From Bacteroidota bacterium (GTDB lineage: Bacteria > Bacteroidota > Ignavibacteria > Kryptoniales > JAKASW01): a DNA stretch of 64,000 bases. The translations under genes and the position numbers were made by a program. Below the pieces are notes generated by a model. That model saw only the letters and a program-made list of their open reading frames with translations. It searched no databases and had not been told where the DNA came from. Shown here piece by piece: positions 30,673 through 38,450 of this stretch; positions within the stretch are counted from its first letter, which is position 1, and every line of letters begins with the position of its first letter. Where the stretch lies: contig JAKAGT010000001.1 of the NCBI GenBank assembly GCA_021825585.1, positions 1 to 64,000 on the forward strand, written 5' to 3'.

Positions 30673-31212
30673 CTATCCAGCCGTATTTGAAACCAGTTTA
30701 CCTCTGCATTCGGGGCAGAGCCTTTCCGTCTTCATGTCTATCTCTTCAACCCCCGTCGAGGAATGCATGACGCATAAATAATCGTTGCAGTGGAGCAAGC
30801 CGAAAGTGTGTCCGAGTTCGTGAACACTCTCTTTGAGGAGGCGCAGGTGGAGCAATTTCCTGTCTGCTCCGAGTCCGTATAACTCATCATTCAGCCTGTG
30901 CGAAGAGACCACTGCCACTTTACCGTCAAGCTGCGCCTCGCCGAACACGTAGGTGAGAACCGGAACAAAGAGATCGCCCGAAGTCACCCCCAGTATTCTC
31001 CCGTCGAAGTCATCGAACCTATCGAGCAGAGCGGAGATTAGCGGTGTAGAGCCGTATTGGTTGCGCGACACATTGAAGGCAAACGACCCTTCGAGCGTCT
31101 GGGACCGGGATACTTCAACCCTCGGCCCAAACGCCCTGGTAAGGGGCTCCACCAGCGGATCGAGGAGGGAACGATCTATCGGGCTGATCGCCACGATTAG
31201 TATTGAAGACAT
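30673..31212 (-). CDS. amzA: archaemetzincin-family zinc metalloprotease
   Basis: HELGHTFGLLHCNDYLCVMHSS…CPEC zinc/cysteine signature. Confidence 0.87.
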   Translation of the reverse strand: MSSILIVAISPIDRSLLDPLVEPLTRAFGPRVEVSRSQTLEGSFAFNVSRNQYGSTPLISALLDRFDDFDGRILGVTSGDLFVPVLTYVFGEAQLDGKVAVVSSHRLNDELYGLGADRKLLHLRLLKESVHELGHTFGLLHCNDYLCVMHSSTGVEEIDMKTERLCPECRGKLVSNTAG

Positions 31213-31244
31213 TGTCCAGGGCTCTGGTCCAGACGGGCAGGTTC

Positions 31245-32609
31245 CTACGGTCTCTTCAAGCCGTACTTCGAGATTTTGCTGTACAGAGTCACGCGGTCAA
31301 TTCCAAGAGCTTCGGCAGAACGCGTTATGTTCCATCCCATTTTCTGAAGCACCTTTTCGATGTGTATCTTTTCCCAGCTCGTCAGCAGATCGTTCTGGGG
31401 TGAATTCTGTTCCTGAATCTGAGACATCTGGAACGGCAGATCCTCCGGCCGGATAACGGGGGGTTTGGCAAGTACCATGGCGCGCTCGATCACGTTTTCA
31501 AGCTCGCGGACGTTACCAGGCCATCTGTTTCGGATTAGCAGGTCCATAGCTTCCGGGTCGATATCGATCGTCGGCTTGCTCATCGAAGCGGCATATTTTT
31601 TCACAAAATGATTTACCAGCGGCGGAATGTCGACGCGCCTCTCCCTCAACGGGGGAATGAATATCGTAAACACATTTAACCTGTAGTACAAATCCTCGCG
31701 GAAACTTCTGTCGGCTATAGCCGCCTCCAGGTCTCGGTTGGTGGCGCATATGATTCTGAAGTCGCTTGAGATCATTTCATTGCCGCCAACCCTTGTGAAC
31801 TGTTTAGTCTCCAGGACCCGAAGAAGCTGAACCTGCATCTTTTGACTGATCGTCCCAATCTCATCGAGAAAGACTGTCCCTCCGTCGGCCATTTCAAATT
31901 TCCCTTTGCGGCGGTATTGTGCACCCGTGAAAGCGCCCTTCTCATGGCCGAAGAGCTCGCTTTCAAGGAGTGTCTCCGGAACCGCTCCGCAGTTGACCGT
32001 GATTATCGGGAAATACTTTCTCGAGCTGTTTGCATGAATCGTCCTGGCGACAAGCTCCTTGCCGGTACCGCTTTCTCCGCGAATCATGACGGTGGTATCC
32101 GTCTGGGCTACGGTTCTCGCCAGGTCGATCACCTTCTGCATCTGAGGGCTTTCCCCTACAATCTCATCCGCCCCTGAGAGCTCGGACATCTGCTGGCGCA
32201 GCCTCCAGTTCTCGTCGGTAAGTTTTTTCGCCCTGAACGCATTTTGAACGAGATGTGTCAGGTGATCAGGATCTACCGGCTTTGTTATATAGTCGAATGC
32301 TCCCTCTTTCAACGCCTGAACCGCAGTGTCGACTGCGGCGAACGCAGTAATTATGATTATCAAGGCGTCCTTGTCGATCTCCTTCAGCCGCTTCTGCAGT
32401 TCCAGTCCGTCCATGCCGGGCATCTTTATGTCCAGAAGCATAACATCCCAGGGGCCTTCATTCATCAGACTCAATGCGCGATTGGCGTTTTCCGCCGTTC
32501 CGACCCGGTAGCCGTCTTCCTTGAACCATTTGCTAAGCGAGTCGCGAACCGACAGCTCATCATCAACTACCAGTATGCTCGGTTGAAGCGCTTTATGATT
32601 GTTTGCCAT
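31245..32609 (-). CDS. sigma54-dependent response regulator (NtrC family)
   Basis: receiver ([17 protein letters not shown]), AAA+ [21 protein letters not shown] loop, C-terminal HTH. Confidence 0.96.
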
Positions 32610-32627
32610 GCTCTCTTCTCAATTCTT

Positions 32628-34247
32628 TTACAAGCTTGAAATCTTGTCCGCAACCGGCTCGGAAGGGTTCACCGGGAGAGTTATTGTGAACGTGGTCCCT
32701 ACATTGGACTCCGATTGAACATCAACCCTTCCGCCGTGTCTCTCTACGATACCGTGAACGACAGCAAGGCCGAGCCCCGTCCCCTTCCCGTCCTTCTTCG
32801 TCGTGAAGAACGGCTCGAAGATGTGTTCCATGTCTTCCTTGTTTATGCCAATTCCGGTGTCGACAATTTTTATCTCAACGCCGCGTTTTTTCTCCTTCAT
32901 TCTCATCTCGACAATGAGTGTTCCCCCATCGGGCATTGCCTCTATCGCGTTTATTTCGAGTGCAATCAGGGCCTGCTCAATTTGCTGCGGGTCACAGGTA
33001 GCTTCAGTGTGCCCTTCCGGCATTTTAAGCTCACACTTCACGTTGTGCATCGTAAGATGATGGGCTATCAGCTTCAGACTCTGTTCTATGATTGACCTAA
33101 GGTCCTGCGGCTGGAAATCGCCCACCTTTTGCCTGGAAAACAGGAGAAGGTTGCTGACAATATTGCCGCATCGGGCGCTCTCGTCAGCTATCATCGCAAG
33201 TTCTTCCTGCATCTCTTTGATTCTCTCCTCGGGGATGCTTTCCTTGCCGATTTTCTTCCTCAGCAGCTTAGCATACGCGAGTATCCCCGCAAGAGGATTG
33301 TTGAGTTCATGAGCTACGCTTGCGGCAAGCTTCCCCAGCGATGCCATTTTTTCCATCTGCACCATGTTCGACAGCGCCCTGCGCAGTTCCGCCGTCTTCT
33401 GCTCCACCTTGTCCTCAAGTGTGTATGCCCATTGTGTCAGTTCATCCCTTGCACGGCCGAGCTCTTCGGTCATTTCATTGAATGATGTCGCCAGATCCCC
33501 GATCTCGTCGGAAGAATGCACCCTTATCCTGTGGTCGAGGTTTCCCTTCATGATCTCCTGTGTTCCCTGTGTCAGTTTCCGTACGGGGATATTAACCATA
33601 ATCCAAATAAATAGTCCGGCAAAGACCGTGACGCTCAACACCATTAGAGCGCTGCCCATGTAAGTCGACGCTCTCAATTGGGCAAGGTCCGCATCCATAC
33701 CTTTCAGCGGAAGCATGACATCAAGCACTCCGAGCACAGTCTGGGACGACGGATGCTCGTGACACGGGGCGTTGTAGCAGCTGGGCTCATTCCTGATCGG
33801 TGTTATCACTCCGAGAACCCTGTAGCCCCTCGGCGAATAGAAGATTCTGGTCAGGGCCGAGGTCCTGTTCGTCGGAAGACTCTTCCCGGGGCTGTGGCAG
33901 ACATTGCAGGCTTCTGCGTTCATGTTGACATACCTGCCCACTTCCGTTTCGACGCTGGAATATGTTATCTCACCCCGCTTATTGTAAATCCGGATCGCCT
34001 CTATCCCGGGTTCGGTTCCCAGCGTGTTGATCGTCTGATAAATATCCTTGCGCCTGTTCTCGAGCATGCTGTACCGCGTGGACCTCTTTATGAGATCACT
34101 TGTCCGCAATGCCCAATCTGTTGTAATGCTCAAATACTTTTCATAGTGCCAATTCAGCATGACGGTTGTGAAGATTCCCGTAGAAACAAGCATTACGAGA
34201 AGTACGATTACGAAAAGCCTGAAGGCCAGAAATTTAGTGATACGCAT
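32628..34247 (-). CDS. sensor histidine kinase with predicted periplasmic c-type heme motif(s) and HAMP
   Basis: two TM segments; CNVCH and CYNAPCH in the sensor domain; HAMP; VAHELNNPLAGILAYAKLL; DTGIGINKEDMEHIFEPFFTTKKDGKGTGLGL. Confidence 0.92.
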   Translation of the reverse strand: MRITKFLAFRLFVIVLLVMLVSTGIFTTVMLNWHYEKYLSITTDWALRTSDLIKRSTRYSMLENRRKDIYQTINTLGTEPGIEAIRIYNKRGEITYSSVETEVGRYVNMNAEACNVCHSPGKSLPTNRTSALTRIFYSPRGYRVLGVITPIRNEPSCYNAPCHEHPSSQTVLGVLDVMLPLKGMDADLAQLRASTYMGSALMVLSVTVFAGLFIWIMVNIPVRKLTQGTQEIMKGNLDHRIRVHSSDEIGDLATSFNEMTEELGRARDELTQWAYTLEDKVEQKTAELRRALSNMVQMEKMASLGKLAASVAHELNNPLAGILAYAKLLRKKIGKESIPEERIKEMQEELAMIADESARCGNIVSNLLLFSRQKVGDFQPQDLRSIIEQSLKLIAHHLTMHNVKCELKMPEGHTEATCDPQQIEQALIALEINAIEAMPDGGTLIVEMRMKEKKRGVEIKIVDTGIGINKEDMEHIFEPFFTTKKDGKGTGLGLAVVHGIVERHGGRVDVQSESNVGTTFTITLPVNPSEPVADKISSL

Positions 34248-34428
34248 GGTTTTTGAGACGCCTCTTGGCAGTTTTCACAATTCTTATGCCGAGAAGGGTC
34301 ATGACTTCAGGAGAAGATAGTGGCTCAAATCAGGATGAAATCGGCCCCGAAAGAGATAGCCAGTGACGACTCAGGAGTCGGGGTCTCGAAATTGGGTTGG
34401 GACGTGGCATAATTCCGCGAACTTCTTT

Positions 34429-35253
34429 TCAAGTCCTGATAGCCAGCATTTTCTGCAGGAGAAATAGGAGCTTCTGAGGCCCGAGAAAATCTCTCAAATT
34501 CCTCGTGCGGGTTCCACCATCCAACAAAGTGACGCCGAGAGACGGGACATGCTGATACTCTTCGATTATCTCGTGTTTGAACTGCTCCATCTGACTGCTG
34601 TACTCCATTCCGATTTCCTGAGCGTTCAGGAAACGCCTCGTTGTATTCTCTCCATCGGTCACTTCCAGATCACTTATCCAGCCCTTTCCGTACGGATCAT
34701 TCTTAATGAGGGCTGCCGAATCCTTCAGTTGGAAATTGCTTCGGACGACCCTGCCGGACAACGGCGAACGGACCGCTACCGTCCCGTCTTCGCATATCAT
34801 CCATGCGAGCGGATTGTTGATGGCCTGCAGGGCGCCCCGCGGGGACAGTATCACGCTCCCCAGGCTTTCAAGGAGAAAGGCCGCGTAATGGTCCAGCCCT
34901 ATACGATATATGTTGTCTTGCTCTTTCATAACCCAGACGTGATTACGTAAATACGATCTGTCGGCAGGCAATGAGACAGACATTGGGAGGGCAAAGAAAC
35001 CGTTGAGCAAGCTGACGAGCATTTCACAACCAGATACGGCCTTCTCTTCGATTTTCGCTTCTACTGATCCGGCCGCCTTGGCGGTTAGAGGCATAGAAGA
35101 GGGGTGGGACTGTCGGTGCATGACTTGATCGAACGGGCAGTCCTCACATTCAAAATTACGGTCACACAACTTGTACGAGACCAGTCCCGCTTCAACCCAA
35201 ATACAATTCATTTCGCCATCCGGGATCACTCTGTTGATCATTTTGTTTTCCAT
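34429..35253 (-). CDS. glycine cleavage H-like domain protein with N-terminal cysteine motif
   Basis: CIWVEAGLVSYKLCDRNFECEDCPFD; HVWVMKEQDNIYRIGLDHYAAFLLESLGSVILSP…SPLSGRVVRSN…DPYGKGWI. Confidence 0.75.
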   Translation of the reverse strand: MENKMINRVIPDGEMNCIWVEAGLVSYKLCDRNFECEDCPFDQVMHRQSHPSSMPLTAKAAGSVEAKIEEKAVSGCEMLVSLLNGFFALPMSVSLPADRSYLRNHVWVMKEQDNIYRIGLDHYAAFLLESLGSVILSPRGALQAINNPLAWMICEDGTVAVRSPLSGRVVRSNFQLKDSAALIKNDPYGKGWISDLEVTDGENTTRRFLNAQEIGMEYSSQMEQFKHEIIEEYQHVPSLGVTLLDGGTRTRNLRDFLGPQKLLFLLQKMLAIRT

Positions 35254-35278
35254 GCCGCACCGCCTCTATGAATCATGT

Positions 35279-36574
35279 TTATTTGGCTTCCATTCCAAAC
35301 GTATGCGCACTTTTCAGTTGAGCATTGTCTTCCAGCACGACGACCTCGTAGCTCTCAGCATGCGCAGGGGCCTCCGCGTGAACCTCCTTGGGAAAGACCG
35401 CAAGATTCTTCGCTGCCCATGCGAAGGTGCCGAACCCGACCGCCACTATCATCAATGTAACCGAAATTTCCATCCAGCTTGGGAAATAGTTGACGCCGAA
35501 CTGGCTGTAATAACGCTCAATGGATGTAATGCTGACATCCATTCGGTTCAGGACGAATCCTGAAACAATGAGAAGCGCGGTGTAAAACAGGCCCCGCTTG
35601 CTCTCTCTCACTTTCGGGATCACTAGTAGTACCATAGGAAGAACCACACCGCCCAATATTTCGACCCAATACAATACCCCCTCCAGATTGAACGTGGAGA
35701 GATAAGGCGCAAGATGATAGTTCAATATATCTTCTATCTTCAAAACGAGGTATATCGCAAGGGCGACTGCACTTACTTTCCCCAGCTTTGAGAGTATCGG
35801 CATTTCGATCTCCCTGTGGAAAGCGCGGGAGCTGATGAACGACTCAATTGTCACCATTGCAGGTCCGACCGCCACGGCAGATATGAAGAAGAAGAAAGGA
35901 AGGTTGCCGGAATACCACAGCGGGTACATCTTCTCGGGCACAATAAGGTAAAGTGATCCCAGCGATGACTGGTGCAAGGTGGAAAGCATTACGCCGAGTA
36001 TCACAAGAGGGACGATCACTTTATGCACGGCGTGAACCGCCCTATGCATTCTCAGCCGTTCGAAGAGCATCGGGCTGAACTCCAGAGCAAGGACCGCCGT
36101 ATAGAGAATCACGCACCATGCAACCTCGAACATAACCGAATGGGGATTCCACATCACCATCGGATGCCAGATGTTCCACGGTCGCCCCAGGTCGAATAGG
36201 AGTGCAAAGACGACCAGCACATAGCCAAGAAAGGCCGTAAGTACGGAAGGCCGCACGATCGCCTGATATTGGTCCAAGTTGAAGACGTAGACCGCAGATG
36301 CTACGACGAAGCCGCCGGCTGCCAGACCGACGCCGCACAACACGTCGAAGCCGATCCACAGTCCCCACGGGAAATCATCACTCAGATGAGTCGCGGCGCC
36401 AAGCCCAAACAAGAATCTCACCACAGTCGAGTATAACCCTGCGGCAACGAGAGCCAGGAAAACAGATTTCCAGAATGTCATGTGCCTGAACCAATTAGTT
36501 ATGTTCGAAAGGAATCCGTTACTTTTCATCTTTTCCTCCGGCGATTTGCCTTTTATCTTCTGACGCGACAGCAT
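35279..36574 (-). CDS. NrfD/HybB-type integral membrane quinone-reactive subunit
   Basis: polytopic; GLGAATHLSDDFPWGLWIGFDVLCGVGLAAGGF; DLGRPWNIWHPMVMWNPHSVMFEVAWCV; likely start at 36529 (MKSNGFLSN) or 36574. Confidence 0.88.
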   Translation of the reverse strand: MLSRQKIKGKSPEEKMKSNGFLSNITNWFRHMTFWKSVFLALVAAGLYSTVVRFLFGLGAATHLSDDFPWGLWIGFDVLCGVGLAAGGFVVASAVYVFNLDQYQAIVRPSVLTAFLGYVLVVFALLFDLGRPWNIWHPMVMWNPHSVMFEVAWCVILYTAVLALEFSPMLFERLRMHRAVHAVHKVIVPLVILGVMLSTLHQSSLGSLYLIVPEKMYPLWYSGNLPFFFFISAVAVGPAMVTIESFISSRAFHREIEMPILSKLGKVSAVALAIYLVLKIEDILNYHLAPYLSTFNLEGVLYWVEILGGVVLPMVLLVIPKVRESKRGLFYTALLIVSGFVLNRMDVSITSIERYYSQFGVNYFPSWMEISVTLMIVAVGFGTFAWAAKNLAVFPKEVHAEAPAHAESYEVVVLEDNAQLKSAHTFGMEAK

Positions 36575-37325
36575 TCGGCTTTCCCTCCCTCATTTGTTCT
36601 TCATACTCCGCCACCTTTTTCTTGCGGTTGGTCAGCCACCAGAATCCTGCCATGAGTGTGCTACCCCACACGAAATAATCGGGTATCTTCTCCATAATAT
36701 CCAATGTGTATTGCGGGAGCGCTCTCTTCGGAAGGGAAGGTGGGAACCCGAGCTCGGAAAAATCGACTCCGGCAAGGTAAATAGTCGATGTGCCACCGAC
36801 TTCGGTCTCCCCAAAGACATGCTGGACGTATGTCTTTGGATTCTCCTTGATCTTTTTCTCTGCCTCCTGCAGCAGGTCATCACGATATCCGAAGATGCGG
36901 GCCTGAGCGGGACAAGCTTCGACGCACGCCGGCTGCTTCCCGTTCTCAGTCCGCTCAAAGCACATGTCACATTTTGTTATATGGGGGTTTGCCTTGTTCC
37001 ATTGGTATTTCGGAATCTGGAATGCACATGCTTGCATGCAATAGCGGCACCCAATGCACTTGCTCTCATCGTAAACCACCGGTCCTTCCGCCGTCTTGTG
37101 GAGAGCGCCTACCGGGCAAACAGAAGCGCACGCGGGTTCCTCACAGTGCATGCAAAGCCTGGGAACATATGTTCCTCCCCATTGCTGCACAACCGTGTTC
37201 TTTTCGCACGACAGTTCGTGGACCTCCGTATGCGGAAAGCCCCACCTGTCGGCGCAGGCTTCCTCGCATGACATGCAGCCTATGCATTGTGTTGTATCTA
37301 CTAAAATACCTACTTGCTTCTTCAT
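36519..37325 (-). CDS. HybA/PsrB-type 4Fe-4S ferredoxin subunit with C-terminal TM segment, no Tat signal visible
   Basis: CIGCMSCEEAC, CMHCEEPACASVCP, CIGCRYCMQAC, CDMC…CVEACP; IPDYFVWGSTLMAGFWWLTNRKKK. Confidence 0.9.
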   Translation of the reverse strand: MKKQVGILVDTTQCIGCMSCEEACADRWGFPHTEVHELSCEKNTVVQQWGGTYVPRLCMHCEEPACASVCPVGALHKTAEGPVVYDESKCIGCRYCMQACAFQIPKYQWNKANPHITKCDMCFERTENGKQPACVEACPAQARIFGYRDDLLQEAEKKIKENPKTYVQHVFGETEVGGTSTIYLAGVDFSELGFPPSLPKRALPQYTLDIMEKIPDYFVWGSTLMAGFWWLTNRKKKVAEYEEQMREGKPNAVASEDKRQIAGGKDEK

Positions 37326-37351
37326 GATGGTTCTCCCTTTGACATTTGCGA

Positions 37352-38086
37352 TTAGGACTTAATGGAGGTGGCGGAATCGGCCGACGCCAGGAAATCGTTT
37401 TCAAATTTTTTCCAGACCTCCTGCGGTGAATGCTCCATTACATCGTCTACCGGCACACCGCCGTCCATCAGCGTAGCTCCAGCCAACGCCGGAGAACCAG
37501 ATCCTGCAAGCGTCCCCATTTGTGCGGTTATAAAATTCCTAAACCTCTTAATCTCGTCCTTCAACCATTTTGCCGCTTCACTCCCGATGGAAAGCTGTTT
37601 AATCTCGTCCGCCAGGTCCGACGGCTCCATGACGGCAATCCATCCCGCCTTGTACGGTTCTTTCCTTAGCATGTCGGGAAAGTGAATCAGCTCATCGTTC
37701 ACAGCAACGACTTTTCCCGAGATCGGGGCACGGAAAGATAACGTCTTCGTTCCCTGTCTCACGGTGAACAACTTCTCGCCCCTCGCGAACCTGCCATCCT
37801 GGGAAACGACGGTCACCTGGTCAACCGCGCCCAGAATTTTCTGGACGAAATCGTCAAGTCCTACTCTTGTCAACCCGTCCGGAAGGAGTTCGACCCATGT
37901 GTGCCCCTTACCAAAGAAATAGGCCTTTGGAATTACAAACCTCGGCTTGGACAAAACCTTGACCGCCGGAGACAATGCGGCCTTACGTTTCTCGGCACGC
38001 TGCACGAAATAATCGATTACGAAGAAAACGATTATCGTCGCGACAACAAACAACGCAACCATTTTGAACCTCCTAAGATTTAACAA
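37352..38086 (-). CDS. membrane-anchored glycine cleavage H-like domain protein
   Basis: N-terminal TM (MVALFVVATIIVFFVIDYFVQ); KGHTWVELLPDGLTRVGLDDFVQKILGAVDQV…APISGKVVAVNDEL…PYKAGWIAVMEPSD. Confidence 0.82.
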   Translation of the reverse strand: MLNLRRFKMVALFVVATIIVFFVIDYFVQRAEKRKAALSPAVKVLSKPRFVIPKAYFFGKGHTWVELLPDGLTRVGLDDFVQKILGAVDQVTVVSQDGRFARGEKLFTVRQGTKTLSFRAPISGKVVAVNDELIHFPDMLRKEPYKAGWIAVMEPSDLADEIKQLSIGSEAAKWLKDEIKRFRNFITAQMGTLAGSGSPALAGATLMDGGVPVDDVMEHSPQEVWKKFENDFLASADSATSIKS

Positions 38087-38413
38087 TTAGTCTTCGAGAT
38101 CCCTCAGATTCAAACACACCGGTCAATCTCTATGATGACTTCCCTTGTGAACCTTAATATCTTCTCTTTCATACCTTGAATCTCTTTTCGTTACTACACC
38201 ATGTATCCTCAACTATCGTTCCGAAAGTGCCGGCGCGGGGAATTTTTTTGATCATCATAGTCATCCATTTTGTAATTACTTACGGCTGTCGCTCGACGGG
38301 AGAGGAGAACTGCGGTTAAGTGGAAAAGGAGCGAATGTAAAGCAACTCAACACCCCGAAATGCGGAAACGTTGAGATTCCTTATCGGCGTGAGAAATAGG
38401 CGGATTTTGTGGC

Positions 38414-38450
38414 GTTGACCGAATCAACATAGAGCGTTGCAAAGGTCAAC
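38414..38450. promoter_or_regulatory. candidate tandem operator upstream of the redox operon
   Basis: GTTGACCGAATCAAC (38414-38428) and GTTGCAAAGGTCAAC (38436-38450): two GTTG-N7-CAAC palindromes 22 bp apart centre to centre. Confidence 0.45.

Follow-up and report, generated by a model that had tools for sequence, protein, structure and literature searches.

At glnA, dimers of the phosphorylated response regulator NtrC occupy tandem, phased palindromes and control a sigma54 promoter that lies at some distance. The sites of a second activator, NorR, differ in sequence from the GTTGA-N5-TCAAC palindromes considered here. At norVW of Escherichia coli, three NorR enhancer sites lying upstream of a sigma54 promoter are required for activation and scaffold the AAA+ oligomer (PMC2941729, citing Tucker et al. 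2010). Furthermore, the response regulators of Desulfovibrio vulgaris, many of which are sigma54 dependent, have been described as acting locally, through inverted repeats of 4 to 6 bp separated by 3 to 8 bp (PMC3333781), the motifs having been obtained by comparison of orthologous upstream regions (PMC3333781, PMC4641369).

In the window, by which we mean the whole 64-kb stretch of DNA analyzed, a pair of GTTG-N7-CAAC palindromes lies upstream of a redox operon, and very probably forms the distal half of an autoregulated sigma54 enhancer that comprises three sites and to which the operon's own regulator (31245 to 32609) binds. Like norVW, the locus has three sites upstream of a sigma54 promoter, here a predicted one. 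However, NorR is a one-component sensor of NO with a GAF domain, whereas the regulator encoded here has a receiver domain and is accompanied by a partner kinase. The GTTGA-N5-TCAAC sites, with their 22- plus 77-bp geometry, also set the array apart from that of NorR. The NtrC enhancers of glnA differ from it in both site sequence and spacing, and a nitrogen-related function is not indicated here. The sigma54-dependent regulators of D. vulgaris are likewise local and associated with inverted repeats, but the organisms and the operon are different. The elements recognized upstream of the operon are the following.

38436 to 38450, minus strand: putative enhancer site 1 (distal), GTTGACCTTTGCAAC on the operon strand, scoring 9/10 against GTTGA-N5-TCAAC
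38414 to 38428, minus strand: putative enhancer site 2, GTTGATTCGGTCAAC, scoring 10/10, 22 bp from site 1 with conserved spacing
38337 to 38351, minus strand: putative enhancer site 3 (proximal), GTTGAGTTGCTTTAC, scoring 8/10, 77 bp from site 2 and nearer the gene
38256 to 38283, minus strand: GTAAGT...GACTATG, a block found conserved in the alignment of 12 genomes of the genus and situated between site 3 and the predicted promoter
38209 to 38223, minus strand: predicted sigma54 promoter, CGGAACGATAGTTGA, with GG at -25/-24 and TTGA ending at -12

The letters and coordinates given for the two palindromes in the first-pass annotation proved exact, with centers at 38421 and 38443 and hence 22 bp apart. 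Two matches to GTTG-N7-CAAC were found in the window, and no others, compared with 0.8 expected. The genome scan proposed in the same annotation identified the 22-bp pair as the only one in the 4.97-Mb genome, where single GTTG-N7-CAAC sites amount to 101; since single sites are so common, the signal resides in the pairing. In dinucleotide shuffles of the 716-bp gap upstream of the operon (n = 20,000), two sites occurred once and the 22-bp spacing never. This gap, described as noncoding, is slightly longer than stated (about 716 bp instead of about 690 bp), because the first gene starts at the ATG at 38062, which follows an AGGAGG ribosome-binding site, rather than at the TTG at 38086.

The pair was correctly recognized in the first-pass annotation, which had however missed both site 3 and the sigma54-like element. 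Site 3 is degenerate in the window and is a better palindrome in most relatives. The element CGGAACGATAGTTGA has the right -24/-12 spacing and departs from the TGGCAC-N5-TTGC consensus; in particular, the promoter of the genus reads GGAACG...TTGA versus GGCACG...TTGC in the consensus, which, as a guess, would be compatible with a weak promoter tightly dependent on its activator. Transcription is predicted to start near 38197, so placed that the site centers lie about 147, 224, and 246 bp upstream, the range of enhancers being about 80 to 250 bp. The block at 38256 to 38283 reads TAA, about 19 bp, and TTA across the 12 genomes of the genus, and could perhaps be the site of a second protein or a bending element.

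The operon downstream of the array consists of seven genes (30673 to 38062), whose order is constant in the genus and in most of the class.

37352 to 38062, minus strand: GcvH-like protein encoded by the operon's first gene, starting at the ATG at 38062 and carrying a hydrophobic segment at its N terminus
36519 to 37325, minus strand: HmcB-like 4Fe-4S protein
35279 to 36574, minus strand: HmcC/NrfD-like membrane subunit
34429 to 35253, minus strand: second GcvH-like protein
32628 to 34247, minus strand: sensor histidine kinase
31245 to 32609, minus strand: NtrC-type response regulator, proposed binder of the three sites, with a receiver domain, an AAA+ domain with GAFTGA, and a Fis-type HTH
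30673 to 31212, minus strand: metalloprotease of the archaemetzincin family, with whose gene the conserved cluster ends

In the first GcvH-like protein (37352 to 38062), the nearest Lys lies one residue away from where true GcvH has its lipoyl Lys, as judged against E. coli GcvH, and this protein may not be lipoylated. The regulator matches the Pfam families Response_reg, Sigma54_activat, and HTH_8, and conserves the GAFTGA motif at residues 225 to 230, the receiver Asp60, and the recognition-helix sequence IDRVTLY. Against TIGR01818 of NCBIfam, which describes NtrC proper (NR-I), it scores 433.1 bits, below the cutoff of 558.6. The genome also contains rpoN, with one Sigma54_DBD match of 185.5 bits. 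The regulators of one family within the same order read GAFTDA instead of GAFTGA.

Orthologous operons were located by means of the first gene, GcvH-like, in 60 relatives, and the upstream regions of the window and of 11 relatives of the same genus (12 genomes) were aligned. The tandem pair occurs at exactly 22 bp in all 12 genomes, although it is weak in one or two, and the position of site 1 is kept in the 11 relatives. A third copy of the palindrome is found 74 to 78 bp nearer the gene (12/12), and a GG-N10-TTG element follows 122 to 128 bp beyond site 3, again in every aligned genome. When all spacings from 11 to 99 bp were compared in the 11 relatives, with the window excluded, 22 bp gave the best result, with a mean of 17.18 out of 20 versus 11.46 (standard deviation, 0.28) in shuffles. 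The next-best spacings were 99 and 77 bp, as expected since these are the distances that three sites predict. Considering each genome separately, 22 bp was the single best spacing in 9 of the 12 and tied for best in two more. A deoC-linked element was considered and rejected: deoC is the upstream neighbor in the genus only, and not in every member, so that the sites belong to the operon.

Outside the genus, the array, with its pair at 21 to 23 bp, recurs in Kryptonium, Ignavibacteria, Chlorobiaceae, Neomarinimicrobiota, Schekmanbacteria, and Nitrospinae; in the last four, excluding the first two, the first gene is about 29 to 35% identical to that of the window. Thus, the conservation upstream of orthologous operons on which the first-pass annotation had staked its reading was found in the genus, in the class, and in other phyla. 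In five genomes of the same order, the third site lies 66 to 67 bp beyond the pair, and in other families of the class this distance is 67 to 81 bp, the pair being spaced by 21 to 23 bp in both cases; the difference between 67 and 77 bp corresponds to about one helical turn. With a search consensus originally drawn from the window and its relatives, the three-site array scored higher than every one of 60 shuffles at 27 of the 52 named loci scanned, reaching 27/30 in Schekmanbacteria, 28/30 in Chlorobiaceae, and 25/30 in Neomarinimicrobiota, while Nitrospinae display a clear tandem pair and a weak third site. From 69 sites in 23 genomes, a better consensus, GTTGA-A-WWW-T-TCAAC, could be derived. 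Moreover, the arrays outside the genus mostly precede a canonical TGGCAY-N5-TTGCA box, as in TGGCATGGTATTTGCA and TGGCACAGTTATTGCC, at the place corresponding to CGGAACGATAGTTGA in the window. In Geothrix, KSB1, Rhodothermales, and Desulfobacterales with related genes, the strict scan revealed no recognizable array, although these lineages are also further removed in both operon and regulator. In genomes devoid of the operon, the strict pair was at background (3 matches in 25 genomes, the reversed-pattern control giving 14 in 61). One family carries extra GTTGA...CAAC-like palindromes at -45 to -56 upstream of the GcvH-like gene. They lie downstream of the sigma54 box (-24/-12) but ahead of the start codon, and possibly serve feedback repression.

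The attribution of the sites to the operon's own regulator must be weighed against the hypothesis that they form a sigma54 enhancer serving some other regulator of the NtrC family, whose gene lies elsewhere in the genome, with the operon's regulator acting on other targets. The genome does encode several other NtrC-family regulators, 45 to 47% identical to that of the operon, and 12 perfect palindromes are scattered across it as single sites besides the one in the window (13 in total). However, none of these 12 has a partner at 22 or 77 bp and most fall within open reading frames, for which reason the idea that the motif marks a large regulon across this genome was also rejected. Furthermore, array and regulator orthologue co-occur across phyla: wherever the contigs allow the comparison, an orthologue 54 to 87% identical is found inside the operon throughout the genus and in most of the class, with the next paralogue at about 50% identity or below. 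Support for the operon's own regulator, as the first-pass annotation had it, comes from an acidobacterial genome, that of Thermoanaerobaculum, in which kinase, regulator (54% identical), and archaemetzincin form a separate unit. Ahead of this unit lie a tandem pair of its own, GTTGTGGTTTTCAAC and GTTGTGTTTTTCAAC with 22-bp spacing, and a sigma54 box, TGGCACGACCTCTGCA; in the same genome, the GcvH gene is preceded by GTTGACAGTCTCAAC together with a TGGCACG box. A different regulator appears unlikely.

In some genomes of the genus, a second, paralogous set of kinase, regulator, and archaemetzincin genes is found beside GcvH-like genes. In two of them, the regulator of the paralogous set is 49% identical and has a different HTH, and no GTTGA site scoring at least 9 was detected at these two loci, which likewise speaks for the operon's own regulator.

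A still less probable alternative is that the sites, instead of forming a sigma54 enhancer, mediate repression or dual regulation, by either the operon's regulator or some other dimeric factor. The noncanonical promoter of the genus could be read in this sense, as could the extra palindromes of the one family mentioned above, where binding could block transcription. However, the three main sites lie about 150 to 250 bp upstream of the predicted start, as is typical of enhancers, the regulator retains both the AAA+ domain and GAFTGA, and canonical sigma54 boxes are present downstream of the sites in relatives. Finally, a reading of the pair as part of a leader or terminator, folding into an RNA hairpin or a DNA cruciform with an outer stem of 7 bp and an inner one of 4 bp, is hardly credible and was rejected. 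The window sequence folds well on its own (z, -3.8) and the genus shows a slight excess of compensatory changes, but outside the genus pairing is lower than in shuffled controls. Moreover, such a structure would explain neither the third site, nor the promoter, nor a spacing that varies from 21 to 23 bp, and the predicted start lies downstream of the element. A search of Rfam returned no family at threshold and one chance match below it.

Thus, the reading in which the operon's own NtrC-type regulator acts through a sigma54 enhancer is supported by conservation, by the sigma54-type element that follows the sites in most of the orthologous operons, by the presence of rpoN, and by the linkage to the operon; we infer from these that the regulator binds the sites, that its action depends on phosphorylation and DNA looping, and that it activates rather than represses. 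In the best-supported mechanism, regulator dimers would bind the three GTTGA-N5-TCAAC palindromes, sites 1 and 2 being exposed on the same face of the DNA at 22 bp and site 3 being located about 77 bp nearer the promoter. Phosphorylation of the regulator by the kinase would then lead the bound dimers to assemble the AAA+ ring, which, upon looping of the DNA, would open the sigma54 polymerase complex on the predicted promoter (-24/-12, 38209 to 38223). Since the kinase and regulator genes sit in the operon, such a circuit would be autoregulated.

As regards the available descriptions, the GTTG motif is absent from the text of PMC3333781 and PMC4641369; NrfD is absent from the former and a glycine-cleavage/Hmc operon from the latter. 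In a library of open-licence papers, we found none joining archaemetzincin with a response regulator, or GcvH with NrfD and a histidine kinase, and a looser search of titles and abstracts returned nothing concerning a GcvH/HmcBC-like operon. Given the precedents of NorR and Desulfovibrio and the lack of a paper on this operon in that library, the probable enhancer is of a known kind (NtrC/NorR type), while its pairing with this operon appears to be undescribed within the papers covered. The GcvH/HmcBC-like redox operon itself is widespread and apparently undescribed.

What began as a guess about two palindromes has thus become a regulatory unit that can be tested, with predicted sites, promoter, and binder. 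Moreover, the conserved association of a sensor kinase with the GcvH-like and HmcBC-like genes offers a way into the question of which signal the complex answers. The array is also specific enough for the regulon to be followed into uncultured bacteria. On balance, we are inclined to suggest that a self-regulated module of kinase, NtrC-type regulator, and archaemetzincin, with a fixed three-site enhancer, may serve across phyla as the dedicated controller of a hitherto unnamed GcvH-like/HmcBC-like membrane redox complex, in which case the enhancer would provide a means of locating and defining this complex in new genomes.
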